A DNA stretch of 26,173 nucleotides from a virus, in IMG/VR virus record IMGVR_UViG_3300020472_000146, positions 1-26,173 of that record; one strand, written 5' to 3'. Below, in pieces: positions 1,297 through 26,173 of the stretch. How positions within the stretch are numbered: position 1 is the first letter of the stretch; each line of letters starts with the position of its first letter. Both the position numbers and the translations under genes were made by a program. Below the pieces are notes generated by a model. It did no database searches. It saw nothing but the letters and a program-made list of their open reading frames with translations, and was not told the DNA's origin.

Positions 1297-4200
1297 TTAG
1301 AATGCTTTTATAAGGTATTTAGCTCTGTGGTATCTAGTTATGAGAGGTATATTCTCTTCTGGTGTTGCCGTGGCATTAACAGATATTGGTGTTGATGAAG
1401 ACAATGCGAATGTACCATCAGCAAATCTAATATTAGATTGTGATGCACTAACAGTCTTTCTAACCTCATCTATACCAGTATTAGGTCCACATGTTCCTAT
1501 ATTTCCTGGTATTTCAGAATTAGTAGAAGGTGTGAACACTTGTGATGTAACCTGACCAAATTTAACACCAAATTCAGCAAGACCCCATATATCAGCACCA
1601 TCATCATCCCAGTCACTACCAGAATTAGATGGTCTAGTCTGACGTAATACTAGATATATACCAGTTTCTTTAATTGGACTAGTATCATCAACTGCGTATT
1701 CATATTTCTTCCACCCTTGATCAGTTGTAGTAATACTAGCAATTACTTGCAATAGAGTATCATTAGCCTGATCAACACTAGTTTTATAATACATTGCTAA
1801 ATCTTCTTCTGGTGCATCACCACCATTAGTACCATCACCTTTAATAATATAGAATACCAATTTATCTGCTGCTGCTAGATTTAATGGTCCTAACTGTAAG
1901 TACCTGTCACCATCACCAACAAACTTAACAAATTTAGTTGATTGTGTTGAATAAGCAGGGAACGTACCAGTTGCAGGAAGTATTACATCTACATCTTCAC
2001 TAGCACTGTGCCATATATCACCACCAAGAGTTGATGAAGTTGCTGGCCAAATTGAATTATCAGGATAACCAGGAACTTCATAAACATTTCCTCTAGGAAC
2101 AGTATATCCACTAGGGGGATTAGCACTACCTGCAATAACTCTTTGTGCTTCAACCTTAGCAGCTCCTTGTCCACCAGATTGTGAGTTACCACCAGATCCA
2201 CCGTTACCAGGATTTCCTAAGTTAACAACAATGTCAGTAGCACCATCAGAATCATCAAATGCCCACTCTACAGTTAAGACACCACCACCACCTGCACCAC
2301 CACCAGAGGGATCTACAGTATTACCCTCATAATGTACAGTGAAGTTAACGTATCCACCTCCAGATGATCCAGCACTTTCAGTAGCATTATGGACAAAATT
2401 AGTATTATAAGAAGATCTACCAGCATAACCACCAGATCCTGATCCAGTGTTGACGTGTCCAGCACCAGCAACTCCTGACGCTCCACCCTCACCACCTGTA
2501 CCATCTCCAGCACCAGCACCGCCGCCGCCTCCTCCACCAGCTGTGCATCCTCCTTCACCACCACCATTACCATATCCAAATCCGATAGATTGAGTTGCCA
2601 TTAAACCTTGTGCAGGTGGATTACCTGGTCCACCAGTCCAACACTTATCATATATTGAACCACCATTATATCCACCACCGCCAGCACCACCGCCACCGCC
2701 AGCACCAGCTCCAATAATATATGTGTTAGCACCTGCTACTGATAATGATGTTGCACCACCACCAGCTCCAGCAGCAGAACCATTTCCCCATGCTCCACTA
2801 CCACCATATCCACCATCAGCAGCACCAGTACCTACATTATTATTTCTTGGTTCACTATTTGTTCCCTCTACATTATTATATCCTTGTCCACCTTGAGTAC
2901 CAATAGTAAATGTATAGTTATCTACTAGAGTACTACCATTACCTGATCTACCTGTTACTCGTCTACCTTGTCCACCACTTCCACCTACACCAGTTTGTGT
3001 GGAACCTGAACTATTAAGATATGACTGATCTTGACAACCTGCTCTTCTATTAGCATTACCATCACCACCTGCACCACCAGATACATCAAGATCAATATAA
3101 ACAATACTTGCATCAGAAGGAACTCTTGGATCAGCAGCAGCATTAAATGTACCACTACTACTAAAGTTTTGTTGAAAACTACCTATTGATGGTGTTGTTG
3201 CATAAGCACCATTACCACCACCACCAGCATTAACAAAATCACCCATATTTAGACCTGGTGCTCCATCAGGAGTTGAACTATCTTGTTGTCCTCCATCACT
3301 ACCATTTTGACCATTCAACTGAGTAGATATAACAAAATTTGCATCAGAAACTAATGCAGCAGGTACTAAGAATCCTCCACCTGTTCCACCATTACCACCT
3401 GACTGTCCAGCAGTACCACCAGTACCACCATAAGCATAGATGGTATACTGAGATTTTACTCCATTAATAATATAATCAAATGTAGCAGATACATTTCCAC
3501 CTGTTCCACCATTACCTTGTGAACCACCACCTCCACCACCAGGAGCAACGAGACTTATCTTATACTTTCTTACATCAGCAGTTCCTGAAGATGCACTCTT
3601 AGTAATAGTTCCAGATGATGTTATCATCTCTTCATATCCTGGAACTGGTTCATAGTCATCAGGATCTTGTGATAATATTGGTTTACCACCTATTCTAGTT
3701 TGAGTATCAACTACCCATACCTTAGGATCTGGTATTGTAGTAACATCTGAGAAATAACCTGCTGCTTCTCTAACTTTACCAGTAGCATCTCCATTACCAG
3801 CAGCAGGTGCATTAGCAGGTTCTACTTTAAATGTATTTGTATTAAATCCTTCTTGTATAATTTGGAATGTACTATCATACCCTGATCCAACTTCCAAGAA
3901 TGTTATCCAATCACCAACAGCAAATCCATGATCTGCTTCAGTTACACATGTAATTTTCTGACCATCACTGCTAACAGTATTAATAGCAATAGATGGTGCT
4001 TCAGTAATCTTATAATTCTTACATCCACCAGTTCCAAAATCTTTATCACCAGCTTCTAATGGGAATGATCTATCCTCACCCCAAATAACTCTGACTCCAC
4101 CATCACCACCTTTTCCACCAGCAGCACTGTAACCAGCACCACCACCACCTCCAACTTCACCACCAAATCCACCAGTCATAGGTGTGAATGTTCCAGCACC

Positions 4201-7200
4201 TCCAGGTTGATATATTTGCTCTGCATAATCAGAAGCCATGAATGGGAATGATCTTACATTTCCAACACCCCATATAATTCTTACAGCACCATTTCCTCCA
4301 TTTCCACCAGCGATATTATAACCACCACCACCTCCACCACCGTGGCCGCCACCTTGACCACCACCATATGATGTCCATCCAGCAGAAGTAACAGCATCAG
4401 CTGATGTTTGTTTTCTATCACCTGTATTACCTGTTGTATGAACAGACCAAGCAACACCAGCAGGGTTAGCAGCCCAGTTATTTTGAGATGAATTATAATT
4501 CTTAATTGTATACCCTACTACATGATCACCAGCAGCTACACTTCCGAGATCATATATTGTACTGGAAGTAGGTGACGTAACAGTACTTGGTTGACCACTA
4601 CCATAATTTTGTGTTGTTACATCATCAGTATCTGTTGATGGGAATGATCTATTGGATCCCCAAATAATTCTTACCGCACCAAATCCACCAGCACCACCTT
4701 CATATGGTGAACTTCCACCATATCCAGCACCACCACCTCCACCATATCCACCGCCAGGTCCACCAGCGACTGATCCAAATGTTGTACCTGTACCAGGATT
4801 ATATGCTTGTGTTGGTTGATCAGTAGTTAATGTACTAGGGAATGCTCTACCTGTTCCCCACATAATTCTTACAGCACCGTCACCACCATCACCACCAGTA
4901 TATCCAGCACCAGCAGGTATTCCACCACCAATATTACATGCACCACCTCCACCACCGATAGCACCACCATTACCACCATCAAAATCAGTATGAGTACTAA
5001 AAGTAGTAGTAGCCATGTCAAGTGAGTCAAGGATCATAGATCCCCACTTGTCATTTGGATTTGTATATATTATCCACGCAATACCAGCAGGGTTAGGACC
5101 ATTCCAAGCACCAGTACCGATGTTAGTTAAAGTACCAAGTACATAATGTCTACCAGCACTAAGAGTTCCTAAGTTATATGTTACTCTACCATCAGTAGCT
5201 TGTTGAGTTTGGTTGGTAAGTGACCATTGTATACCAGTGTAACCAACACCAGTAGGTAAGTAACCTACACCTATAGTACACTCATCATCAACCATTACAT
5301 CAATATATACCTGATTCAATGTAGCTGGAACATCAAATATTTTACCCCAAGGTTCAGCCGAATTATTCCAAGGATAAGGACTGCTAAGATTAGTTGGGAG
5401 TGCTCTACATACAGCCCAATCATTCATGAACTGATCCCACATGTTAGCAGCACCCCATGTATTAGGATCCCATGGACCTGAACGTTGCCAGTGACTAGTA
5501 CTTAGATAAGGCATACCACTTGGACTATCTTGTCCGTCAGCACCACCTGATCCACCAGTACCACCTTCTACTTGAGCACCATAATTTTGTGGTATACAAT
5601 TATAGGAAACAATACTATTATTTCCACTGGCTCCTTGACCATATATTCCTACTCCACCACCACCAGCACCACCAAAATTACATTTACTACCTGCACCTGT
5701 GCCACCGCCTCCACCACTATTTCCAGCAGTATATCCACCAGCACCACCACCACCTTGATAGGCAGCAGTTGAATTTCCATTATCACCACCTTGTCCTACA
5801 TAACCACCACCAGTTGATACTAAATTACTTGCCCATCCACCACCACCACCTCTACAAGTAGTTTGATCAAGGAAATAACTATCTCCACCTCTATTTGCAT
5901 TAGTAGAACTACCAGAAGATGATCCAGCACCACCAGCACCAACAACAATAGTATACGTCTGTCCTGGTGTGACTTGAACCGCATTACGCCAAGCTAATCC
6001 ACCACCACCACCTGAACTATTATTAACACCACCAGCACCACCACCAACTGCTACAGAACAAACTTCAGTTACTCCAGCAGGTGCTGTCCATGTATATGTA
6101 CCAGGAGTTGTCCATTCTGCTTGACCTTGAGCAGGAGTTGGAGTAGCACCACTTGATGAAGAAGGAGATGTAATTGCAGTACCAGCACTACCACCTGATC
6201 CTCCTCCACCACCACTCATTGCTGTGCTTGCTGAATTTTGTACAACTGGATTACCAGCAGCACCGCTACTACCTTGTCCTTTAATACCAACTCCACCACC
6301 ACCTGATCCAGCACCTGTGCCAGTTACAGTAGTTGAACTACCAACTCCACCACCACCGCCTTGTCCAGTAGGATTAGCAGCAGATCCACCCGATCCTGAA
6401 TATCCAGCGGCTCCACCACCGCCACCTGCGGATCCTTTTCCACCACCTACGCCTCCTCCATCACCGACATAGGTTCCACCAGTACCATTATTACCACCAC
6501 CACCTTTTACTGTGGTAGCATTAATGAAATAACTATCTCCACCACTATTACCTTGTGTTCCTGTTGTTCCTGATCCAGCTTGTCCAACGACTACTGTATA
6601 CGACTGACCTGGAACGACTGTTATATTATTCTTATATCCTAGGCCACCACCGCCTCCACCAGCATTATCATTACCACCACCTTGACCAGCACCAACCGCT
6701 ACAACTGCTACTGATGTCACACCAGCAGGTGCTGTCCAATTCTGTGAACCTGCTGTTGTAAATTCTTCCTGACCTCTTGCTTCTGCTCCACCACCACCAA
6801 GGGCAACACCATCCCAACTAATAGTTGCTTCATTGTCTGATTGTACTTCAATACTAAGATTTTGAGTACTTGAAACATTGAAACTATGAGAATTACCCTG
6901 CATCGCATTAATATATGGATCCTGTCCATCATTAGCTGGTATTGATTTATAAATCGCATAGTCATGCATGAAGCTAGACCAGAAAGAATACTGAGGTCCA
7001 CCAGTCAATACCCATGAATCTGATAAAGTAGGACTCACTACAGTGGCTCCATCAGTACCATTGGATCCTCCTTGACCACCTAACATCTGAATATTTTGAT
7101 CACTAGTAAACTGAGGATCTGCTCCAGAACCACTAGATGCTTGTCCAAATATACCTACGCCACCACCTCCAGCACCACCATTAGGAGCACCAGAGAATGC

Positions 7201-10200
7201 CATACCAGCACCACCACCTCCAGCATTTCCATCTACTACTGTTCCTCCACCACCATTTCCAGCGTATCCAGCAGCACCACCACCAGATCCGTATTGTGTT
7301 TTAGCACCACCTACACCACCGCCTTCTCCTGTATATCCACCACCTGTACCTGATGCTGATCCACCACCACCTTTTACAGTATTTGTATCAATAAAATAAC
7401 TATCTCCTCCAGCACCACCTTGAGCATTAATAGATCCTTGACCACCTGCACCAACTTCAACAGTATACGAATTTCCTGGTGTTACTGATATTGAGTTTTT
7501 CCATCCTAATCCACCACCTGATCCACCATTAACACCTTGTCCACCACCAGAACCACCACCAACTGCAAGTACAGAAACCTGAGTTACTCCAGCAGGTGCT
7601 GTCCATGTATATGAACCTGGTGCAATCCAAGCTTGTTGTCCTATTGCAGGAGTTGGATTTGTAGAATTTTGTTCTGTTGGTGCAATAACATTACCACCAT
7701 TAGTACCACCTGATCCACCTCTACCACCTTGCATTATTCCACCTTCAGTGGTTTGTGTGCTAGGGGTTCCATCAACACCAGTAGTTCCTTGTCCTTTAAG
7801 ACCTACTCCACCACCTCCAGCACCACCTCCAGTGACATCTGTATCTGATCCTGTTCCACCACCACCTTGGTTAAGAGCATATCCACCAGCTCCACCACCT
7901 CCACCATTTGTGGATGAAGGGTCACCATTACCACCACCATCACCTACAAATGTTCCATAACTCTTTGAATCACCAGGTGTTGATGTACCACCACCTTTAC
8001 CTACACATGTAGTTTGATCAAGGAACCAACTATCTTGTCCTGGAAGATCAGCAGTGGAAGAAGATGATCCAGTATTACCAGCACCCACGAATAAATTATA
8101 TGTCTGTCCTGGAACCACTGTTACATCGTTGTGGTATCCTAGGCCAGCACCACCACCACCTTTTGTTCCACCAGCACCACCAGCACCACCACCAACTGCT
8201 ACTACACAAACTGATTGAACTCCAGTAGGACATGTCCATGTATGAGACCCTGTAGTAAGCCATTCTTCTTGTCCAGTAGTACCACTAGAACTAGAAGTAT
8301 ACTCACCAATACCACCAGTATTACCATAGGTTGCAGTAGCAGAGTTTGATGGTCTATATGATGTCAAACCATGTGAGTGACCTAAAGCAATCTCATCACT
8401 AGTACTTGGTGTAAATGATAATATATTACCTTTAAGATTCTGATACCTAGTAGTAAATCTATCATTACCACCAAAAGATTGTTCTTGCTGCTGATCTACT
8501 TCACTAGCAATAAGATAATGATCATGTGATGCTGGTCTATTGAAAATATAATCCTGTATAGGTCCAACAGTAAATTGCTTTTCACCACTTAAATATGCTT
8601 GGCACTGAGTCTGCACATCACCATATCCTGATGTTACAACATCACTAATAGTAAAGAACTCTGCTGGATCATCTATCACAGTGGTTGGTATATACCATGC
8701 ACCACCAATATCACCAACTTCTATTGTTGGTCGTGCTTCTACTAATGGAGTACCTGCACCCTCAACACCTTCACCATATCCAATTAACTTTCTATCTCTA
8801 TAGTCTGGTACTCTAAATTTTCCTAATAGGTATGGATAATCTGATTGACTATATCCTTTTCTAATTCTTGCTTTAGGATGTCCTGTTATAACACCAGCAG
8901 TATTAGTATATGGTCCTAAAGTAGCCCATTCTATGTTAAAAACATTATCAGTTACATTACTAGTTACACCAGTTATGGTAAGATTATTAGTATAGTTAGG
9001 ATTACCACTATATGTTGGTATTAATGAACCAGAACCAGCAGTAAAATCTAAACTCTGTATTAAATCCTGCCCATTTGACAGTTTAGCAATAACATTAAAT
9101 CTATAAAGATGCTTCTCACCTCCCTCTGGTTGTGGTCCTGAATATCCACTATCTCTAATCCACCATGCAGCAGTACCTAATGGTGGTTGTACAGATGATT
9201 GTGATACTGTATTACCTTGTATAGTAGCACCTGCTGGTAATACAGCATTACTCTGTAAACTCGTAACAGAAGCAGGAATACCTGTTACATGCCACTGCAC
9301 CATGTCTTGCAATGACATATTCTGAAGAAATATTTCATATGAATCAACTTGAACACCAGCTGGCATTCCATTTAAATTACTCCAACTAAATGAAGGACTA
9401 TAATTTAATGCGTTTGGTTCATATGAAGTATATCCACTAAGATATGGTAATCCAGTACTTGCATCAATTGATCCTGGCACAGCTTCAGGAACAGTACCAT
9501 AATATTCTATCGGTAGTATATAATACTGATCTGCACCAGATGGAGTAATAAGAGTATCAGAAGTAATAGACCAATTGACATTTACAGTTGATGTTACTAC
9601 AGTTGTAGTAGTTGTTATTGCCTGATTGACTAATATTCTATGTACTGTAGTATCTTGTCTTGTTGAAAGATTCTGATACGTTGGATTATATTCCAGATAA
9701 TAATCTTTATCTGCTTCAAATACATTACTACTACCAGCAGGGAAATCTCCAAGAGATCCAACAAACCTTAACTTTGACTCGTGTGGTATAGCACGTTGTT
9801 TAATAACAGAAGATCCTCCTACTGGAGTGAACTCATACTTAAATACTTCTGCATATATGTCAGTACCTTCAATAAATGTTCTGAAAACAGTTCCTGGTTC
9901 ACCAGAACTAGTAAAAGTATATGAGTTAGAGTTAATTAATTCTGTTGGTGTTAAGTAATCATTCCCAATCAATTCATATAATAAAGGATAATCTCTAATG
10001 TCATAAGAAGTACCATCACAATACAAATACCCTTTATGGGCATAATGAGGTGGATTTATAGTACCTATATTATCACTATAATCATTAACCAATACTGGTA
10101 CGATAGCACCAATTGTGCCATAAGATCCGCCCTTATCGCTATACCAATTAGGGGTCTCTGTTGTACCAGTTACAGAACCCTGAGTATTAAAAGTATTACC

Positions 10201-10218
10201 TTGCTTATAAACGGCCAT
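1297..10218 (-). CDS. Giant glycine-rich tail fibre with split collar domain (2973 aa)
   Basis: ATG at 10218 shares its A with the TGA of the upstream gene (TGATG). Domains in order: (i) first half of a phage tail-collar domain, residues 62-90 (GYLYCDG, then RDYPLLYELIG); (ii) insert of about 370 residues holding a PEBP-like domain (about 270-380); (iii) second collar half KFRVPDYRDRK at 467-477; (iv) two H-x-H motifs, 565-567 and 614-616; (v) from residue 649, four glycine-rich modules interleaved with two copies of a beta module; (vi) a second, nested-looking glycine-rich pair; (vii) a reelin-like beta-sandwich; (viii) a C-terminus ending RAKYLIKAF, like the two sister collar proteins. Known relatives are tail fibres or adhesins, so this is probably the host-binding distal fibre. 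Glycine codons are almost all GGT or GGA, giving the + strand its CCA/ACC look. The function as receptor-binding protein is inferred. Confidence 0.9.
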   Translation of the reverse strand: MAVYKQGNTFNTQGSVTGTTETPNWYSDKGGSYGTIGAIVPVLVNDYSDNIGTINPPHYAHKGYLYCDGTSYDIRDYPLLYELIGNDYLTPTELINSNSYTFTSSGEPGTVFRTFIEGTDIYAEVFKYEFTPVGGSSVIKQRAIPHESKLRFVGSLGDFPAGSSNVFEADKDYYLEYNPTYQNLSTRQDTTVHRILVNQAITTTTTVVTSTVNVNWSITSDTLITPSGADQYYILPIEYYGTVPEAVPGSIDASTGLPYLSGYTSYEPNALNYSPSFSWSNLNGMPAGVQVDSYEIFLQNMSLQDMVQWHVTGIPASVTSLQSNAVLPAGATIQGNTVSQSSVQPPLGTAAWWIRDSGYSGPQPEGGEKHLYRFNVIAKLSNGQDLIQSLDFTAGSGSLIPTYSGNPNYTNNLTITGVTSNVTDNVFNIEWATLGPYTNTAGVITGHPKARIRKGYSQSDYPYLLGKFRVPDYRDRKLIGYGEGVEGAGTPLVEARPTIEVGDIGGAWYIPTTVIDDPAEFFTISDVVTSGYGDVQTQCQAYLSGEKQFTVGPIQDYIFNRPASHDHYLIASEVDQQQEQSFGGNDRFTTRYQNLKGNILSFTPSTSDEIALGHSHGLTSYRPSNSATATYGNTGGIGEYTSSSSGTTGQEEWLTTGSHTWTCPTGVQSVCVVAVGGGAGGAGGTKGGGGAGLGYHNDVTVVPGQTYNLFVGAGNTGSSSSTADLPGQDSWFLDQTTCVGKGGGTSTPGDSKSYGTFVGDGGGNGDPSSTNGGGGGAGGYALNQGGGGTGSDTDVTGGGAGGGGVGLKGQGTTGVDGTPSTQTTEGGIMQGGRGGSGGTNGGNVIAPTEQNSTNPTPAIGQQAWIAPGSYTWTAPAGVTQVSVLAVGGGSGGGQGVNGGSGGGLGWKNSISVTPGNSYTVEVGAGGQGSINAQGGAGGDSYFIDTNTVKGGGGSASGTGGGYTGEGGGVGGAKTQYGSGGGAAGYAGNGGGGTVVDGNAGGGGAGMAFSGAPNGGAGGGGVGIFGQASSGSGADPQFTSDQNIQMLGGQGGSNGTDGATVVSPTLSDSWVLTGGPQYSFWSSFMHDYAIYKSIPANDGQDPYINAMQGNSHSFNVSSTQNLSIEVQSDNEATISWDGVALGGGGAEARGQEEFTTAGSQNWTAPAGVTSVAVVAVGAGQGGGNDNAGGGGGGLGYKNNITVVPGQSYTVVVGQAGSGTTGTQGNSGGDSYFINATTVKGGGGNNGTGGTYVGDGGGVGGGKGSAGGGGGAAGYSGSGGSAANPTGQGGGGGVGSSTTVTGTGAGSGGGGVGIKGQGSSGAAGNPVVQNSASTAMSGGGGGSGGSAGTAITSPSSSSGATPTPAQGQAEWTTPGTYTWTAPAGVTEVCSVAVGGGAGGVNNSSGGGGGLAWRNAVQVTPGQTYTIVVGAGGAGSSSGSSTNANRGGDSYFLDQTTCRGGGGGWASNLVSTGGGYVGQGGDNGNSTAAYQGGGGAGGYTAGNSGGGGGTGAGSKCNFGGAGGGGVGIYGQGASGNNSIVSYNCIPQNYGAQVEGGTGGSGGADGQDSPSGMPYLSTSHWQRSGPWDPNTWGAANMWDQFMNDWAVCRALPTNLSSPYPWNNSAEPWGKIFDVPATLNQVYIDVMVDDECTIGVGYLPTGVGYTGIQWSLTNQTQQATDGRVTYNLGTLSAGRHYVLGTLTNIGTGAWNGPNPAGIAWIIYTNPNDKWGSMILDSLDMATTTFSTHTDFDGGNGGAIGGGGGACNIGGGIPAGAGYTGGDGGDGAVRIMWGTGRAFPSTLTTDQPTQAYNPGTGTTFGSVAGGPGGGYGGGGGAGYGGSSPYEGGAGGFGAVRIIWGSNRSFPSTDTDDVTTQNYGSGQPSTVTSPTSSTIYDLGSVAAGDHVVGYTIKNYNSSQNNWAANPAGVAWSVHTTGNTGDRKQTSADAVTSAGWTSYGGGQGGGHGGGGGGGYNIAGGNGGNGAVRIIWGVGNVRSFPFMASDYAEQIYQPGGAGTFTPMTGGFGGEVGGGGGAGYSAAGGKGGDGGVRVIWGEDRSFPLEAGDKDFGTGGCKNYKITEAPSIAINTVSSDGQKITCVTEADHGFAVGDWITFLEVGSGYDSTFQIIQEGFNTNTFKVEPANAPAAGNGDATGKVREAAGYFSDVTTIPDPKVWVVDTQTRIGGKPILSQDPDDYEPVPGYEEMITSSGTITKSASSGTADVRKYKISLVAPGGGGGGSQGNGGTGGNVSATFDYIINGVKSQYTIYAYGGTGGTAGQSGGNGGTGGGFLVPAALVSDANFVISTQLNGQNGSDGGQQDSSTPDGAPGLNMGDFVNAGGGGNGAYATTPSIGSFQQNFSSSGTFNAAADPRVPSDASIVYIDLDVSGGAGGDGNANRRAGCQDQSYLNSSGSTQTGVGGSGGQGRRVTGRSGNGSTLVDNYTFTIGTQGGQGYNNVEGTNSEPRNNNVGTGAADGGYGGSGAWGNGSAAGAGGGATSLSVAGANTYIIGAGAGGGGGAGGGGYNGGSIYDKCWTGGPGNPPAQGLMATQSIGFGYGNGGGEGGCTAGGGGGGGAGAGDGTGGEGGASGVAGAGHVNTGSGSGGYAGRSSYNTNFVHNATESAGSSGGGYVNFTVHYEGNTVDPSGGGAGGGGVLTVEWAFDDSDGATDIVVNLGNPGNGGSGGNSQSGGQGAAKVEAQRVIAGSANPPSGYTVPRGNVYEVPGYPDNSIWPATSSTLGGDIWHSASEDVDVILPATGTFPAYSTQSTKFVKFVGDGDRYLQLGPLNLAAADKLVFYIIKGDGTNGGDAPEEDLAMYYKTSVDQANDTLLQVIASITTTDQGWKKYEYAVDDTSPIKETGIYLVLRQTRPSNSGSDWDDDGADIWGLAEFGVKFGQVTSQVFTPSTNSEIPGNIGTCGPNTGIDEVRKTVSASQSNIRFADGTFALSSSTPISVNATATPEENIPLITRYHRAKYLIKAF
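1560..1980 (-). other. Reelin-like beta-sandwich near the fibre C-terminus
   Basis: The segment RYLQLGPLNL, LVFYIIKGDGTNGGD, EDLAMYYKT, TLLQVIASI, GWKKYEYAV, and RQTRPSNSGSDWDDD ending DIWGLAEFGVKF follows the strand order of reelin-subrepeat or related jelly-roll domains (acidic ridge, 'D.W.I..' last strand). It could bind calcium or glycan. Assignment is by eye and tentative. Confidence 0.4.
2140..3640 (-). repeat. Second glycine-rich region of the 2973-aa fibre
   Basis: One glycine-rich domain opens with RKYKISLVAPGGGGGG (about 3570-3520). A second opens with SSSGTFNAAADPRVP and YIDLDVSGGAGG (about 3160-3060). Ends GGYVNFTVHYEG (about 2330-2360) and GGGGVLTVEW, then VVNLGNPGNGG and KVEAQRV (about 2290-2140) follow in that order. 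This is consistent with one domain inside the other. Sequence differs from modules A-D, with no VRIIWG end. Confidence 0.55.
4435..4566 (-). other. Beta module X, C-terminal half only
   Basis: IYDLGSVAAGDHVVGYTIKN and NPAGVAWSVH match the second half of X' (YNLGTLSAGRHYVLG, NPAGIAWII). It has no FM.D(Y/W)A half in front of it and lies between the second and third VRIIWG ends. Confidence 0.65.
5055..5500 (-). other. Beta module X', complete copy
   Basis: It contains WDQFMNDWAVCRALPTN, a DDECTIG strand, LGTLSAGRHYVLG and NPAGIAWII. It is the complete counterpart of the split module X and sits after glycine-rich module D. The pattern resembles a lectin-like or PA14-like beta-sandwich, a weak analogy only. 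Confidence 0.65.
6780..7019 (-). other. Beta module X, N-terminal half only
   Basis: WVLTGG, FWSSFMHDYAIYKSIPAN and SDNEATISWDG form the first half of a beta module also present intact at 5055-5500. The second half (LG...AG.H.........NPAG.AW) is missing here: the chain enters glycine-rich module C a few residues after WDG. The lost half appears at 4435-4566. Confidence 0.65.
9079..9411 (-). other. PEBP-like (YbhB/RKIP-type) domain inside the glycine-rich fibre
   Basis: Residues about 270-380 of the 2973-aa protein contain the PEBP series in the right order: SPSFSW (family S-P-x-L-S-W), a strand VDSYEIFLQN, QWHVTGIPA (family W-V-x-x-N-I-P), LPAGA, and WWIRDSGYSGPQPEGGEKHLYRF (written here in pieces: GYSGPQPE, GGEKHLYRF; family GY.GP.PP.G..H.Y.F). 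It falls between the two halves of the collar domain. The ligand-site aspartates of active PEBPs are not clear (LQNMSLQD instead of a D-P-D type motif), so a structural or binding use is more likely than a signalling one. Confidence 0.6.
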
Positions 10219-21900: not shown

Positions 21901-24900
21901 GAGTCAAACCATGAGATCCAATAGTAAGAACCTCCTGATTTCTACTTACCAAAGCAGCCATCTCCTTAGCATAATCAAAGACTACATTAGTCTCAGATTC
22001 TTCACCAACAACATGATTACCTGTCTTGTATGAATACGCAGCGTCCCATACCTTATCGTTACCACCATATGCTACGTTATCTGCAACAGCCTTCAATACA
22101 TCTACAACATCATCAACACAATCCTTACTATGATAGATCTTAGAAGCAGGATTAGTTCCACCAACATAGAATACCTTATGAATTGAATTATCTACAGCAT
22201 CTACAAAGGTGTGTGGATATTGTCCACCAGATATTACAGCACCAGGATCTGCTATTACAAATGTATGAGGATACTGCTGACCAGAAGCACCTACATTAAC
22301 ATTAACTGTAATAGTTCCACCTTGCTTAAGTATTCCACCAGTAGCACCTCTCTTGAATGTATGTGCAGACTGAGGAAGATGTTTTACTGAGTTAGGACTA
22401 CCATCTACAAATGTATGTAAAGACTGTGGTTCATACTCAACAGCATCAGGAAGTGCCTCTACAAATGTATGTGCATACTGATTGTTAGCATCAGCATCAA
22501 AACCTACATTGATTGTAAATGTTCCATCTTGTCTCGTAATACCACTACCAGTTGCTTCCACAAATGTATGATTGGATGTATCCTGAGATATACCTACATT
22601 AACTTCAAATGCATTAGCAACAACATTAGAGATCTTCAACCATCTTCCACTTGAAGGATCAAATCCAGTACGAGGGTATGATTTCTCTGCGGTATCACCA
22701 TCTAATTCACATGTAAATTTGAGTGAGTTATCAGCAATCTGAATATAATCTCCATTAGAGAATCCATGATTAGCAATAGAAATTAGTAGAGATCCAGTAG
22801 AAGGAGTATATACAGCACCAGTAGCAGTATGTGTTGTAGAACCAACTGCTGTTACAGCTATAGACTTACCAGCATAAGGGTCAGTACCAGGACGAGGATA
22901 AGAATGCTCTGTTGCATTACCATCTTTATCACAAGTAAAGGTAAGAGAATTATCTTTAAGAGTAATGTCAGAACCAACTGCAAGTCCATGCTGTCCTACA
23001 GTAAGAACCATCTCACCAGTAGCAGCATTATATGTTCCAGCAGTAGGTTGGAAATACTTATCATCACCTGCAACACCTACATTAACTGTAACTGTTGTAC
23101 CAGTTATAGATTTAATAGGAAGAGATCTTCCTGATGCCTGATCTTTACCTGCACGTGGATATGTCTGAGCAACTTGATTACCATCCATTGTACATGTAAA
23201 TGATAATGCATCATTATCAATGGTAATACCATCACCCTGTGATAATGCATGAGATCCAATAGTAAGAGTTAGATCACCAGTTGCAGGATCATATGTTGTT
23301 CCTGTTGTTGGAGTATACTGTTGATCAGCACCTGCTGCATCAACATTAACTTTGAAAGTGTTGACAGTTGCATCTGATATTGTTAACCATTTATCATTCT
23401 TAGGATCACTAAGTCTTGGATATGCATGTTCTGTGAGGTTATTGTCAAACAAACATGTGAAGGTCAAAGACCCCTCGGAAATTTTTATGGAATCGCCATT
23501 TGCAAAACCATGATTTGCTACAGTTAATTCTAGAATACCAGTTGCAGGATCATAATCAGCATCAGTTGCTGTATGATTTGATGAACCAACAGATGTAATT
23601 GGTAACGCTGTCTGATATGCTGGATCAGTTGCACGTGGATAAGAATGCTGTGTTGCATTAGCATCCTGTCCACATGTAAATTTGATAGAATTGTCAGCTA
23701 ATCTAATACTCTGTCCTTTTAATAGTTTGTGGTTGCTTATGCTTAGAGTTAGATCTCCAGTAGTATGATTGTAAGAAGCACCACCAACATCATAAGTCTT
23801 CTCTACTGACTTACCTACATTAACTGTAACTGTATTAGCAGTTGTATCTCCAATAGCAAGTAATGCACCACCAGAAGGATCACTTACACGAGGATAAGTA
23901 TGCTGACTGCTATTACCATCCATTCCACAAGTAAAGGTTAAAGCATTGTAATCAATTCTAATAGCATCATTCTCTCTCTTAATACCACTAGCAGTAAAAG
24001 AAGCAGGAACAGAAGCATGAACATAATCACCACCAGTTACAACTGAGTTATCAGTAGAATGAACAAACGTATGAGCACCAGCAGTAGCATCATTAGCTTG
24101 ACCTACATTAACTGTAATTGTATTAGAAGTTACAGAATCAATAGCAACACCATTGACGATTGGGTCTGTTGCTCTTGGATAAGTATGCTCTGTTGCATTA
24201 CTATCTTTAGCACAAGTAAATCTTAATGAGTTCTGAGCAATTTTAATATTTGTACCAGCAGTCAGTCCATGAGCACCAACAGTTAGTACCATAACTCCTG
24301 TTGCTGGATTGTAATCAGCACCAGTAGGAGTAAATGATATTAGAGGAGAATCACCAACATGAACATCAAATGTATTTGTAGTTACATTAGAAATCTCTAA
24401 CCATTTACCAGATACAGGGTCAGTTGCTCTAGGGTATGCATGTGTGGTAGTATTATTATCCATACCACATGTAAATGCAAGAGATCCATCAGTAATATGA
24501 ACTCTCTCACCTTCAACCATACCATGACCATTAGATGTAATTGTAAGAACACCTGTGCTTGCAGTATAGTCAGCATCAGATGCTGATAATGATGTTGCTC
24601 CTGTAAGTCCATGACTATTAATAGTCAATGTTAGATCACCACTAGCAGGGTTATAGGCAGCAGCAGTTGGAGTGAACTTCTCTGTAGAAGACTGAAGTAG
24701 CATCCTCTCAACAGACTCATGTGCAATGAGATCTGCATTAGCAAGGATTAAATTACGTGCGTCACCAGCCTTATCATTAACTGGGTCTGGTGCTACAGCA
24801 GTAATAGGATCACTCGCTGTTGTAATAGCAGTATTAGAAGAATTGAGTTGTGCAGTAGTATTAACCTGAGTTAATCCATGACTACCAAAAACAAATATAT

Positions 24901-26173
24901 CTTCCTTACGCATTACCTGAATTGCCATGTCCTTGGCATATTCAAAGCAACGAATAGTTTCGTCTTTCTTAGCATCTAGGTATGCAACAGCACCACTATC
25001 ATAATGGTATGCAGCATCCCATGTCTCTGCGTTACCACCAAATGCTACGTTCTGTTCAATTGCTTTCAGTGCATCAGAAATATCATCAAGACAATCTTGT
25101 GATGTATATCCTGTAGGTGAAGTATATCCAGGGAAGTCAATTGACATCCTATCAAATGCTTCAGCAGCAATGAATGCTCTGTTTGCTTCAATTAAGTTAG
25201 CAGCATCACCATGACGATTAGAGAATACTTTCTTCTCTCCAGTTAAATTCTTAACTCCAAGTTCAATAGTTGCTGAGTCAACAACACGCTTAACATATGT
25301 GTTATCTGGAACGACAGGTGAGTTAGGACGTGTAGCATTCGCTTGTAACTGTCCATTAGGGAACTGAGTAGGATCATAGTCAGCAACAGTCATACCTTGA
25401 ACGATACCACTAGTGTCACCAACATTAACTAATGAAGAAGTTGCAACTGTCTCACAACCCTGACGTAGGTACACAAAGTTACGAGATGCAGCAATTGCTA
25501 GATCTCTAGCATAATCATATGCTTCCAATGTTTCTGTTAATTCACCAGTAATATAACTGAGTTGACTGGTTCCTTGAGTCTGGACATAATAAGATTCAGC
25601 AGCCTGAATAGTATTAATATTACCACCCAATCTTAAATCTTGTATAGTAGCACCAAGTAGATAACCAATATCTCTACGACACTTGACTATATCAATATTG
25701 TCATTAATTTTTAAATTAGGATACTTACCTAGGATATATCCATATGCTTCATAAGCAATGAAATCTTTATTTGCTTCAATCCTATTAGCAGTATCAAGGT
25801 TAGCATTGTTAGGTGTATAACCAGATGGATTTAATACCTCTGCTGATACAGTAAACTTATCAAAACCAGTTGGTGTTAAAGTAGAACTATACTCATTATA
25901 ACCAGTATCATTTGGTTGAAGTTTAACTTTAATCTCATCATCTAACTTAGCACCTATACGATAACCCTCTATAGTTGCTGCTGGACGTTTCTTAGGATCA
26001 TATGCTAAGTCATCACCAATATACAATTTAGTATGGTTGCCAACATCATTAGATGCTTGTACATCTAGAGTATAGTAAGCATTCTTCTTAACATTTCCTG
26101 ATGAAGTGGAGACAACCTGAGGAGGAATAATATCAGTAATATATCCACCCTTATCTTGGTTAAAGGCATAACC
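12992..26173 (-). CDS. Giant virion structural protein, 5' end beyond right edge (at least 4393 aa)
   Basis: A TTG at 26026 could start the frame, but it remains open through base 26173 with no stop (reading GYAFNQDKGG, then IPPQVVSTSS, then NVKKNAYYTLDV), so I regard the true start as lying outside the window. Order of parts: N-terminal strands; helical modules at 25795-21115 (five copies); a nested stack of eight beta units at 24680-22200 inside the third helical module; four 36-residue Cys-led repeats, 21073-20633; a broad beta-rich middle with 'PHGLETGTAVRLVPR' at about 20330-20280; fibre-shaft-like repeats (VGINVT, LAVNGG, LTIDNS), about 17700-14930; and a C-terminal tip domain (GDTFVVYLPDNP, VSIIDVGGN, WWLKEV). 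I see no signal peptide, protease or self-chaperone domain. It resembles the very large 'virion structural protein' family of marine T4-like phages; a baseplate or side-fibre role is inferred. Stop TAA at 12994-12992. Confidence 0.9.
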   Translation of the reverse strand, partial: GYAFNQDKGGYITDIIPPQVVSTSSGNVKKNAYYTLDVQASNDVGNHTKLYIGDDLAYDPKKRPAATIEGYRIGAKLDDEIKVKLQPNDTGYNEYSSTLTPTGFDKFTVSAEVLNPSGYTPNNANLDTANRIEANKDFIAYEAYGYILGKYPNLKINDNIDIVKCRRDIGYLLGATIQDLRLGGNINTIQAAESYYVQTQGTSQLSYITGELTETLEAYDYARDLAIAASRNFVYLRQGCETVATSSLVNVGDTSGIVQGMTVADYDPTQFPNGQLQANATRPNSPVVPDNTYVKRVVDSATIELGVKNLTGEKKVFSNRHGDAANLIEANRAFIAAEAFDRMSIDFPGYTSPTGYTSQDCLDDISDALKAIEQNVAFGGNAETWDAAYHYDSGAVAYLDAKKDETIRCFEYAKDMAIQVMRKEDIFVFGSHGLTQVNTTAQLNSSNTAITTASDPITAVAPDPVNDKAGDARNLILANADLIAHESVERMLLQSSTEKFTPTAAAYNPASGDLTLTINSHGLTGATSLSASDADYTASTGVLTITSNGHGMVEGERVHITDGSLAFTCGMDNNTTTHAYPRATDPVSGKWLEISNVTTNTFDVHVGDSPLISFTPTGADYNPATGVMVLTVGAHGLTAGTNIKIAQNSLRFTCAKDSNATEHTYPRATDPIVNGVAIDSVTSNTITVNVGQANDATAGAHTFVHSTDNSVVTGGDYVHASVPASFTASGIKRENDAIRIDYNALTFTCGMDGNSSQHTYPRVSDPSGGALLAIGDTTANTVTVNVGKSVEKTYDVGGASYNHTTGDLTLSISNHKLLKGQSIRLADNSIKFTCGQDANATQHSYPRATDPAYQTALPITSVGSSNHTATDADYDPATGILELTVANHGFANGDSIKISEGSLTFTCLFDNNLTEHAYPRLSDPKNDKWLTISDATVNTFKVNVDAAGADQQYTPTTGTTYDPATGDLTLTIGSHALSQGDGITIDNDALSFTCTMDGNQVAQTYPRAGKDQASGRSLPIKSITGTTVTVNVGVAGDDKYFQPTAGTYNAATGEMVLTVGQHGLAVGSDITLKDNSLTFTCDKDGNATEHSYPRPGTDPYAGKSIAVTAVGSTTHTATGAVYTPSTGSLLISIANHGFSNGDYIQIADNSLKFTCELDGDTAEKSYPRTGFDPSSGRWLKISNVVANAFEVNVGISQDTSNHTFVEATGSGITRQDGTFTINVGFDADANNQYAHTFVEALPDAVEYEPQSLHTFVDGSPNSVKHLPQSAHTFKRGATGGILKQGGTITVNVNVGASGQQYPHTFVIADPGAVISGGQYPHTFVDAVDNSIHKVFYVGGTNPASKIYHSKDCVDDVVDVLKAVADNVAYGGNDKVWDAAYSYKTGNHVVGEESETNVVFDYAKEMAALVSRNQEVLTIGSHGLTQSMNSQITTDFAQTADNKGGDAYNLIQSNKEFIAEEAYERMILNNAGFLPPTGNPQDCIDDIADFVNEVSYNVGFGGNDRTWDMANLYVTGAHVAGEEEQTLAAFKDATEIMIQVMRNEKVLVIGSHGGTQTYNTGITSFVANPINNKVADARDLIVSNKNFVAEIALGRMITQYPSYTWQTGYSSTDCLDDLKDVVDVVAHNLAYGGNDRVWDAANMYVAGAHAAGSENETIYAFNQVRDLIRQVMTNEAVTVGGHTSLAQATDTSITDGVTNGDCDAPKATVTSLVQILTNTISTPSSLLSVTRTGATYKCPTVESAINTLSGIVSNAITAPESLALVTRVRSAGKCEDVRNSIDTLFTIIQNTITTPSSLNSISRSSSNGSCQNVASTISTLFGILTTTINDATSSNPTGYLNSIERKTSPEGVSFGASVNPNTTTTNSYLWFTLPAGIYADPTLFTPSTDTSITIDAGYPQCNSQSDAVRQFFANIKTIIQNGLNSVPRAQAASVGALSNRATLWKIAGTNPHGLETGTAVRLVPRPKAGVDVDKRKVRLPNGFETNEKYYVIASGRNTLPENYSGVSQFNGNENSQVYFMLASSVENAAAGIYLHSAEVEAIDPDVEIDVYQFILDDKYDLHQYGCKMDGTVPSGIRTDVPHVFDVPHENTGSPAKPPTAHKVFFREDTDNSKKLPSVSGTYAFDPAVTFQSGTNQGKIRDDKFFYVRYDNAKVFTVYKTAELAVQGQITIDFAPDPSTTYGFFVFADKRQSPMRFDPSFDNPNSTEMGKWYLNVKPNSDGANTNTSMEILARLHTQAYNQNSGQDKTNDSWFERVTDDREADERIYRFRYVIPKYLKSVRDPLNGFTIKVRKDETRKLLPQRLVLEPITGTALAQFSNPNQSNEKIGSTQSQFDDPSNNILIDNQYDPYRKVLDSDPIGSTFIKKITSNNYVGMTVQSARYLTGANIELTVIDPYINNAALANEKLTTVKITAPEGGSTATGFSFSKDLKQDDNTQPTFNKVVWNSPHATGYGYIHAVCQVPGTPSEWHLILKGVVNTTGKLLFSETDNIRFEQGSVYADLKSDPDYGKSLDTKDLIGKNLPQYYYKQLGASVYTITPGDIIPDDTGNDYRVVSVEDAGDIDDTFYIFNVQEIKRRIFEQQEGVYYITAVRGNHSPYPTGAGNLGNFRNMKFSQPISKLYPLNYKNDPLWYQHPKLDPAAIDPPATYSAADNYVHGLVKVNDFKGSMTKEAVVDFTKTSALIDYSYTGTSTIQAKPGNASSGSEDRLIPITGTNDVVSQQKLYVELRRPSIARAGNHTFEYLGFGPGNYSTGLPQRQEVVLTTTQDFYSQSKKQDGGLVFYTGLNSNGDLYIGNRKIDAITGEEVFLERAALVDSEDDGEDLGSLVTTFDTPVTFNKNITVNGGDDQNMVNRFNSPVEVNVLGTIGKDALIIQSNISTNAADTEDQSLDRTAQFLNGDTKGDVVISKNRVAASVFQFNPRGSNGAAQGYRIQNHVVGLLGSNVTPNQTPLVVNGGSALYPEQNVVYSFAGAPLTGDMLLKGEEVGKSGSLGWIYANYYADVANASIYSLQPESTSVPSRKIRIYWNGLTNQSIGLTSGSQIRINGMLDSAFNDTFNIIPGSFDKTNTWVEFNLDIGNERTDISGDVVRLWSTEVSLNNPSLLMEYSNSSWKEFGVIGAEAIRANVDYLGEYKLGINTVARAEHQSAKNAWTELATEPRANLDVVGTAFISGKTFDNTNWLTNSVLGNRTESSVDNAFLVGGDSRPGVDANNVPLQDNEATLRVSTTNGGRVGINVTNGQLNGTADTRFNAALAVDGSGYISQNLRVENDLAVNGGGGGNIANITTTIDTGTFEFVNDTTFKGIAATSSVAGTNGLKMAGYLHNIEIGNATTDIQDIKIGNVSTHSTITIADTVDGTIETGATNGTNVSLVTIGGAYNSVESASETRIGTKSFKIDGDVWLGWRRTPTDLSQTVDFKSKATVVNFLSNSGGPSTVNFATKASEINIAGQGGVTTINNSLEVAASAKFNSNVELCGGNSSGYYVGNRGQLGTTIINHTNGLAADPENPDKNVDLVNVLVTGPNDTGYNQINTGGFNYWGSVYFRLAKTQVGGIPEVAPQTLPEIPESENCFYLPLLNACDNYYAVGDYILINSPIVTGGHPEIVEVVELTRASIAPFWIKVRRNPLGNFAAAVNSHLDFTVLYKCEIQFNSTWTTQDLDNTGPQDDVYLAEFGGSLDTADYIIVGRDAQGTLGEFIKIAEIKDEVAQVFTINDCDSPAKTVFEVNSVTGDTYVGGKLTIDNSVSLNGGCGSTVRTFGTNDPPAASFIGDVIAESGTVNATGISGIDTDDIAKLQVGDIVKLTSYNENQRPILPVNTRITEIDDTSITLSNGIGALSAINNASFSASRNEEVTITNGSNQNSLYLDTCTATLEIGSQYRRIQVSRCLPDVQDAADTETAFRSVKEHIRAYSYWLDPKVLQSNGPISALSSNATTGTVPGSVYLPVSQIGVADGLFLVGDLVIVGDAQDIANRGLTAGEQTFEIMKIEAVDEVNKVLRCAPGQEGTTALALSNYTAGSGNTTVMRLLKHPESSSVFDIQSRTRTISGVDIPYVSLILEKGYIVQTKLDYANWVRFHDTRTTGTFDDAFFYVGDDINSAVNKGCLFGNVHQDVMNEFTHAGVVPHQTGDLTVNKDLTMIGGDITVYDSVKKTKLFAFRNDDGHADHAANIDFEAGIIGRGTITLYSTSCPENVAVNSCDPSFSVDVFKNVVAGSTFTVTGEAIQSPTRTPKLTIDNLGVSGANKYVINQDQSIDAFGINNFTTKSGGRHARYVATGADESDKYLTANIQYFANVANGDTFVVYLPDNPNSGDEVSIIDVGGNLTYNTSLVVRAQGTGTRVQGDAQGTSLGIEGTTIWGSGELVVQTPNAAFTLVYLGGTDSDNNVVGGSVTGWWLKEV
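12995..13400 (-). other. C-terminal tip domain of the giant protein
   Basis: The last about 135 residues read RYVATGADES, YFANVANGDTFVVYLPDNP, then EVSIIDVGGNLTYNTSLVVR, a QGDAQG turn and FTLVYLG, ending GWWLKEV. The pattern 'LP..P..GD.V.I.D.G.N...N...V...G..I.G' is, from memory, a common C-terminal beta domain of phage tail fibres. A distal or trimer-capping position is inferred. Confidence 0.55.
12997..13001 (-). promoter_or_regulatory. Strong Shine-Dalgarno (GGAGG) for the 473-aa collar gene
   Basis: GGAGG lies 8 bases upstream of ATG 12988 and is embedded in the codons of the last three residues (KEV) of the giant gene. It is the clearest ribosome-binding site in the window and would let this gene initiate independently of the upstream giant cistron. 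Confidence 0.75.
15700..17700 (-). other. Fibre-shaft-like beta repeats of the giant protein
   Basis: This part carries short irregular beta repeats typical of tail-fibre shafts: FNKNITVNGG, VLGTIGKDALI, TLRVST with GRVGINVT, AALAVDGSGYIS with LRVENDLAVNGG, and a ladder of I-x-I/V-x-I strands (DIKIGN, TITIAD, SLVTIGG). A beta-helix or triple-beta shaft is inferred; no copy number is claimed. Confidence 0.55.
20633..21073 (-). repeat. Four tandem 36-residue repeats each starting with Cys
   Basis: Cys codons sit at exactly 21073, 20965, 20857 and 20749, 108 bases apart. Each unit reads C....V...I.TL..I..N.I..P.SL..(V/I).R; the fourth is extended by 6 residues before its Arg. The amphipathic pattern predicts a helix, a PxSL turn and a short second helix. 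I do not recognise a named family. Confidence 0.85.
21115..25795 (-). repeat. Five helical modules, the third split by the beta stack
   Basis: Each module has an N-half, 'LI.AN..fIA.EA..RM', and a C-half, 'CLDDI.D....v..N.a(Y/F)GGN...WDAA..Y..GA', then 'QVMRNE' and 'GSHG.TQ'. Copies lie at about 25795-25470 (divergent: GYLLGA, LRLGGN), 25210-24865, 24768-24690 plus 22140-21895 (two halves separated by the beta stack), 21848-21509 and 21460-21115. The module resembles helical repeats I recall from marine T4-like structural proteins. Function is unknown; the alternation of module and exposed insert suggests a scaffold carrying projections. Confidence 0.8.
22200..24680 (-). repeat. Stack of eight beta units (opener, FTC..YPR core, VNVG strand, HTFV closer)
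   Basis: Eight FTC codon triplets lie at about 24467, 24212, 23927, 23672, 23453, 23192, 22931 and 22709, each followed by D-x-N/D and a YPR. Eight openers of the form Y-x-P-A-T-G-x-L-x-L-T-I-x-x-H-G occur. HTFV or HTFK closers occur at 24062, 22559, 22460, 22406, 22352, 22256 and 22202 (low coordinate of each), plus one degenerate closer (DYVHASVPASF) after the first. Core spacing is 219-285 bases. The closers are not in tandem order with the cores: six are piled up at the end. These units are known to me only as a recurrent motif of marine T4-like phage structural proteins; fold and ligand are not established here. Each unit carries one conserved cysteine. Confidence 0.85.

Follow-up and report, generated by a model that had tools for sequence, protein, structure and literature searches.

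Genomic setting of the nest

The window, that is, the whole stretch of DNA analysed, is a virus record of 26,173 bases (IMG/VR IMGVR_UViG_3300020472_000146). The region studied here, hereafter the nest, is located at window positions 22157-24676 on the minus strand and comprises 840 residues, corresponding to residues 451-1290 of a minus-strand open reading frame (ORF). The ORF is open at its 5' end, extending for 4393 aa up to the contig end, which leaves room for a true start other than the TTG at 26026. Profile searches matched the window protein to the cyanophage tail-fibre and structural families PHROG 4527 and PHROG 5342 (E 0 and 6.1e-221), and the neighbouring genes match tail-collar, short tail fibre and tail-assembly families. 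The named-phage relatives amount to 321 records; the label is Synechococcus, Prochlorococcus or cyanophage in nearly all of them and only 'Marine' in nine. A separate ORF of 2973 aa (window 1297-10218, minus strand) has a phosphatidylethanolamine-binding-protein match (PF01161) at aa 271-379 and also four glycine-rich domain matches.

The nest is flanked by ERMLLQSSTEK on one side and SKDCVDDV on the other. The other helical repeats of the window protein have a short loop (DRMSIDFPGYTSPTGYTSQDCLDDI, ERMILNNAGFLPPTGNPQDCIDDI) at the position corresponding to the nest. Thus, the entire nest is inserted, at its root, into a loop of one helical repeat, the helical character being inferred from the sequence. 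This placement is an addition to the initial annotation, which had proposed from sequence alone that the region consists of nested beta units. One of the four helical repeats, which carry the motif GDAxNLIxANRxFIA..RM..DCLDDI..GGN, is matched by Pfam Phycobilisome (PF00502) at 33.4 bits against a curated cut-off of 22.2 (window 24899-25207, minus strand; aa 274-376). Such a helical, phycobilisome-like fold would be unexpected in a virion protein of a cyanophage, and the match may be spurious.

The repeating unit and its order in the nest

The unit is ~100 residues long and is composed of an opener hairpin (O, consensus Y.P.TG.L.LTI..HGL), a core (C, DNSLTFTC...HTYPR), a strand (V, NTITVNVG) and a closing hairpin (H, HTFVSA..NAI). 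The canonical order O-C-V-H is fixed by solitary, uninterrupted copies in the relatives (95 distinct). Four position-specific profiles of these motifs, blind to their order, were trained on all relatives and applied to 79 related viral contigs, with six false hits (four H and two V) in 339,520 aa of shuffled protein. In the long ORF of one relative (L007), a lone O-C-V-H unit lies at residues 4086-4134 of the same giant protein, away from the large nests.

The profiles identified 8 O, 8 C, 8 V and 7 H in the window, in the order O O C V O C V H C V O C O C V O C V O C O C V H V H H H V H H. The eight cores are of the form FTC...YPR, and HTFV or HTFK occurs at 24062, 22559, 22460, 22406, 22352, 22256 and 22202. 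The eighth closer, that of unit 1b, is VHASV at aa 670 and is degenerate in the window (profile score -4.8). It is intact at the same place in L001 and L010 (89% identical), as HQFSTATASGI / VHQFSTATASGI with a score of 23.5.

All features of the nest are on the minus strand. Opener 1a (FTPTAAAYNPASGDLTLTINSHGLTGAT.., 24587-24676; O score 59.8) has no core before the next opener and represents the first half of unit 3. The opener, core and V strand (VHVG) of unit 1b follow at 24338-24586 (profile scores O 42.3, C 51.0, V 41.7), and the V-H loop of 1b holds unit 2, a contiguous O-C-V-H at 24029-24334. The degenerate closer of 1b (DYVHASV...GIKREN) occupies 23969-24028. The core and V strand of unit 3 (23795-23968; C 60.6, V 27.1) are preceded by DAIRIDYNAL (23939-23968) in place of an opener. 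Unit 4 (23576-23794) provides an opener, a core and an outgoing neck strand (ITSVG) and is cut ahead of V; units 5 (23315-23575) and 6 (23054-23314) each provide an opener, a core and a V strand; and unit 7 (22832-23053), which also provides an opener and a core, is cut ahead of V after its outgoing neck strand (VTAVG). Unit 8 (22526-22831) is the innermost and is a contiguous O-C-V-H. After unit 8, the closer groups run V+H, H, H, V+H, H, namely TFTINVG and HTFV for unit 7 (22430-22525; V 18.1, H 33.7), HTFV for unit 6 (22376-22429), HTFK for unit 5 (22319-22375), TITVNV and HTFV for unit 4 (22226-22318; V 18.7, H 26.2) and HTFV for unit 3 (22157-22225; H 31.4). Six of the eight units (1b, 3, 4, 5, 6 and 7) are interrupted, and the contiguity of each domain that would be expected of a tandem repeat is not met.

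The inventory of the initial annotation held in all parts. It had counted eight openers, cores, VNVG strands and closers, of which one closer (1b) proved degenerate. Its proposals that the core of unit 3 lacks its own opener, and that 1a and 3 are the halves of one unit split by 1b enclosing 2, are supported by DAIRIDYNAL ahead of the core and by the motif order and model spans, respectively, with units 3 and 1b weak in the models. The claimed cut of units 4 and 7 one strand earlier is confirmed by the extra V in their closers and by long model strands, and that of units 3, 5 and 6 after the V strand and before HTFV by the profile order. The closers after unit 8 had been assigned in the reverse order 7, 6, 5, 4, 3, which the profiles, relatives and models all support. 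Taken by itself, the window has five closer groups of which two are V+H; these allow 10 possible orders, and a match to the predicted order is a 1-in-10 event. The evidence on order from the window alone is therefore weak, and its strength rests on the relatives and the structure models.

Bracket grammar in related phages

Motif strings were scored with a minimum-edit parser under a nested grammar, in which whole units are allowed after O, C or V, and under a tandem grammar. Minimum-edit parsing replaced greedy stack parsing, in which one missed motif breaks the remainder of the string. For the distinct strings, which hold 8 to 60 motifs each and 1147 in all, parsing cost 169 edits under the nested grammar, 571 under the tandem grammar and 641 after shuffling; the window string required 1 nested edit against 17 tandem edits. 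Perfect nested parses include L042 (44 motifs), L061 (36) and the complete string of L010 (32), and seven distinct perfect strings of at least 16 motifs were observed, against none from a first-order Markov surrogate (20 rounds). Twelve isolate records, obtained afterwards and not used to build the profiles, gave 16 nested, 132 tandem and 161 shuffled edits for 258 motifs, with 12 of 17 blocks parsed perfectly. Homologous strings are not independent. The leftover edits in some relatives' strings probably reflect weak or missed motifs; truly unbalanced nests are not excluded.

The balanced nests form 33 patterns of up to 14 units and a depth of up to 7, with insertions after V (85), after C (43) and after O (30). 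Many hosts in these patterns carry two or more inserts, making forked trees. Relatives with the same grammar occur in named phages: that of P-RSM4 is directly upstream of gp9, that of ACG-2014d is separated from gp9 by one more gene on the same side, and that of S-RIM44 is the tail-fibre gene downstream of a baseplate wedge gene. Cyanophage Syn1 shares the grammar. Closely downstream of the S-RIM44 tail-fibre gene are two tryptophan halogenase genes as well as 2OG-Fe(II) oxygenase genes (L080 27162-30273), and Sf-CH11 has genes similar to these.

One alternative is that the units are ordinary tandem domains without a final strand, and that the HTFV repeats, 18 residues each, form a separate array behind them with a fold of its own. 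The closers do resemble a short tandem repeat spaced by ~18 residues (1186, 1204 and 1222). However, the tandem grammar costs far more edits than the nested grammar both in the relatives and in the isolates, the extra V strand accompanies closers only where a unit is cut before V, and the counts of cores and closers correlate at 0.97 across 58 proteins. The structure models also put the closers in earlier domains. An array of this kind can be discounted almost completely.

Another alternative is that the closers pair in a first-opened-first-closed manner, or promiscuously with any open unit. The closers are alike, and in a residue-coupling analysis of cores against closers (131 contiguous units for training, 75 interrupted units for testing) the last-in-first-out pairing could not be told apart from others. 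However, with the closing groups put in reverse order, 15 of 17 informative strings became more costly to parse and none became cheaper, and the model ranges obey the last-in-first-out order. Pairing of this kind is left with next to no support, and nested, last-in-first-out pairing is the reading retained here.

Gain and loss of whole units

Comparisons of close architectures showed that units come and go as wholes. In L014 and L015 (55-58% identical to the window), unit 2 is absent as a block, which amounts to 103 aa in L014. Both have a complete extra unit of 107-108 aa within unit 8, between HGF and GDYIQIADNS, the same kind of site as the one that separates 1a from 3. A complete 104-aa unit is present in the V-H loop of unit 7 in L009, and L012 has a complete 97-aa unit relative to L061 (82% identical). 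The whole-unit indels span 97-108 aa at distinct loops, and no core gained without a closer was seen among the L014/L015, L009 and L012-L061 comparisons. These insertions of whole O-C-V-H units into single loops support the nesting, in which an opener and its closer are gained as a matched pair.

Structure models of the nest

The AlphaFold model of units 5-8 with their closers (422 aa) has a pLDDT of 91.6 and a pTM of 0.78, and that of the whole region a pLDDT of 86.0 and a pTM of 0.54. Because of the latter pTM, the relative placement of the domains is uncertain. The underlying alignments are shallow (17-18 sequences; 18 of identical architecture for units 5-8), and L004-L008, in which the N-terminal half has another architecture, were trimmed from the whole-region alignment. 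The domain composition was assigned by aligning the models to single domains of known structure, using only the first and last aligned residues, and strands were taken from the secondary structure; alignment rows mixing residues of two units (e.g. 185-819) were left out.

In the whole model, the inner units span residues 615-719 (unit 8), 538-753 (unit 7), 453-768 (unit 6) and 367-787 (unit 5), and the outer units 294-820 (unit 4), 4-834 (unit 3), 114-216 (unit 2) and 28-237 (unit 1b). All eight spans start at the predicted opener and end on the last-in-first-out closer, with 54-85 residues aligned; that of unit 3 links opener 1a to the last closer. The spans of units 3 and 1b are weak (Z 2.6 and 3.5), as are those of units 4 and 5 (Z 2.5-3.9). 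The sub-model of units 5-8 is concordant, with unit 6 at 86-402 and unit 5 at 1-422, and its residues 246-350, unit 8, match beta-barrels at a Z of about 8. The longest strands of the whole model, E607-618 and E715-725 in unit 7 and E360-370 and E784-794 in unit 4, coincide with the two hairpins that are cut one strand early, as expected of two-stranded necks; their pairing as necks is inferred. The models support nesting for all eight units, weakly for unit 3. The folding of the displaced closers into their predicted cores is a prediction of these models, with no experimental structure.

A further alternative is a domain swap, in which the units are nested in sequence and the closers complete units of a neighbouring chain in a virion oligomer such as a trimer. 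Tail fibres are commonly oligomers, often trimers, the window protein matches tail-fibre families, and motif order alone cannot distinguish pairing within a chain from pairing between chains. However, confident single-chain models place the closers in the same chain, and solitary contiguous O-C-V-H units are common in the relatives, so that a unit can close within one chain. A domain swap is thus highly improbable without being ruled out.

A probable recursive insertion tree

Taken as nested within one chain, the region is in all probability a recursive insertion tree of a single beta-barrel unit. The motif order, the bracket grammar in relatives and the whole-unit indels behind this reading are shown; the folding of the closers into the expected domains is shown only as a model prediction. 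The tree of the window is, with similarly high confidence, 3[1b[2], 4[5[6[7[8]]]]], with six levels and a fork at unit 3. The initial annotation had pictured a spike in which the chain runs out to unit 8 and returns, each domain being inserted in a loop of the previous one. This holds in part: the tree is forked rather than one linear spike, because unit 3 hosts 1b with 2 in one loop and units 4-8 in another.

In the proposed mechanism, three loops of the unit, those following O, C and V, may each be interrupted, and every interruption would be a whole unit of the same kind, itself open to interruption. The chain would go outward domain by domain and come back through successive closers, each of which completes the most recently opened domain. 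Folding is inferred to proceed inside-out. Evolution would add whole O-C-V-H units to a loop or remove them from it; the brackets would stay matched, since loss of the closer alone would leave a unit short of strands. By inference, the nest probably forms a stiff, forked, elongated spike on the tail or baseplate, in which neighbouring domains are joined by two strands and not by one linker. That the spike contacts surface glycans is an inference without binding data, and we are inclined to doubt it slightly more than to accept it.

Repeat proteins are usually viewed as tandem arrays, and read in this way the phage protein looks like broken units plus a small repeat. The correct units emerge only with bracket pairing, so that a polypeptide can encode a branched domain tree, as RNA encodes stems. 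The nest also poses a folding puzzle, as a domain opened at residue 451 is completed ~820 residues later. The phage nests form a series found in nature, in which every step has matched relatives, and can serve to study how nested domains fold, how such trees grow and why cyanobacterial phages build them.

Comparison with known systems

A profile search of the PDB gave no convincing sequence relative of the unit (best E 0.0027, no stretch passing alone). The solved folds closest to unit 8 are the endosialidase beta-barrel (phi92 4hiz, K1F 1v0e/3ju4) and a stretch of the ubiquitin E1 Uba1, which we take to be the FCCH domain (Z 7-8, 73-85 residues, rmsd 1.9-3.8). A Z at this level, including that of the endosialidase-type barrel (Z 8.1, 80-82 residues, rmsd 2.2-2.5), could be explained by a common arrangement alone. 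In the K1F endosialidase tailspike, the barrel binds sialic acid, and this site affects host discrimination (PMC12632334). Unlike the phage unit, the endosialidase barrel and the FCCH domain are single domains that are not self-nested. Tandem FnIII or Ig arrays resemble the nest as elongated strings of small beta domains, but their domains are in tandem and uninterrupted. FnIII arrays, the top Foldseek PDB hits of a four-unit model, were rejected as generic (global rmsd above 17 Å).

Among the cyanophages (T4-like, Kyanoviridae), the window protein matches PHROG 4527 and 5342, and relatives adjoin baseplate wedge or gp9 genes. The two families carry the annotation tail fibre or structural protein, and nesting is absent from the annotations examined; the open-licence literature searched likewise contained no account of nested domains in the tail proteins of cyanophages.

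The principle of deep recursive self-insertion is already known from Si3 of the cyanobacterial RNA polymerase beta-prime-2 subunit (RpoC2), in which eight domains are arranged recursively over six levels, with bifurcating hosts (PMC13114784). The crystal structure showed that its SBHM-2 to -5 are built from distant parts of the chain and not in simple tandem (PMC10802570). As in the phage nest, copies of one beta domain (SBHM/HABAS hybrid-motif domains in Si3) are discontinuous and inserted in one another, over several levels (six in the window) and with hosts that carry more than one insert. However, the phage unit differs in sequence and, as far as tested, apparently in closest fold; the Si3 chain 8emb reached only Z 3.1 over 37 residues in the fold search with the model. 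The phage nest also lies in a tail protein beside tail-collar and tail-assembly genes and not in the trigger loop of an RNA polymerase. What is new is thus that the insertion occurs in phages and in another repeat family, that the trees are larger and vary among many phages, and that whole units were directly seen to be gained and lost. On a bolder reading, which we consider more likely than not, marine cyanophages own a protein construction system with a balanced-bracket domain order, in which one beta unit with three permissive loops gives variable forked trees (up to 14 units, seven levels) that evolve by whole matched units into a branched single-chain spike, independent of and deeper than Si3. 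Deep self-insertion, known from the RNA polymerase that the hosts of these phages carry, thereby has a second and apparently independent case in the nest, with trees of many shapes among the relatives and three insertion loops per unit.
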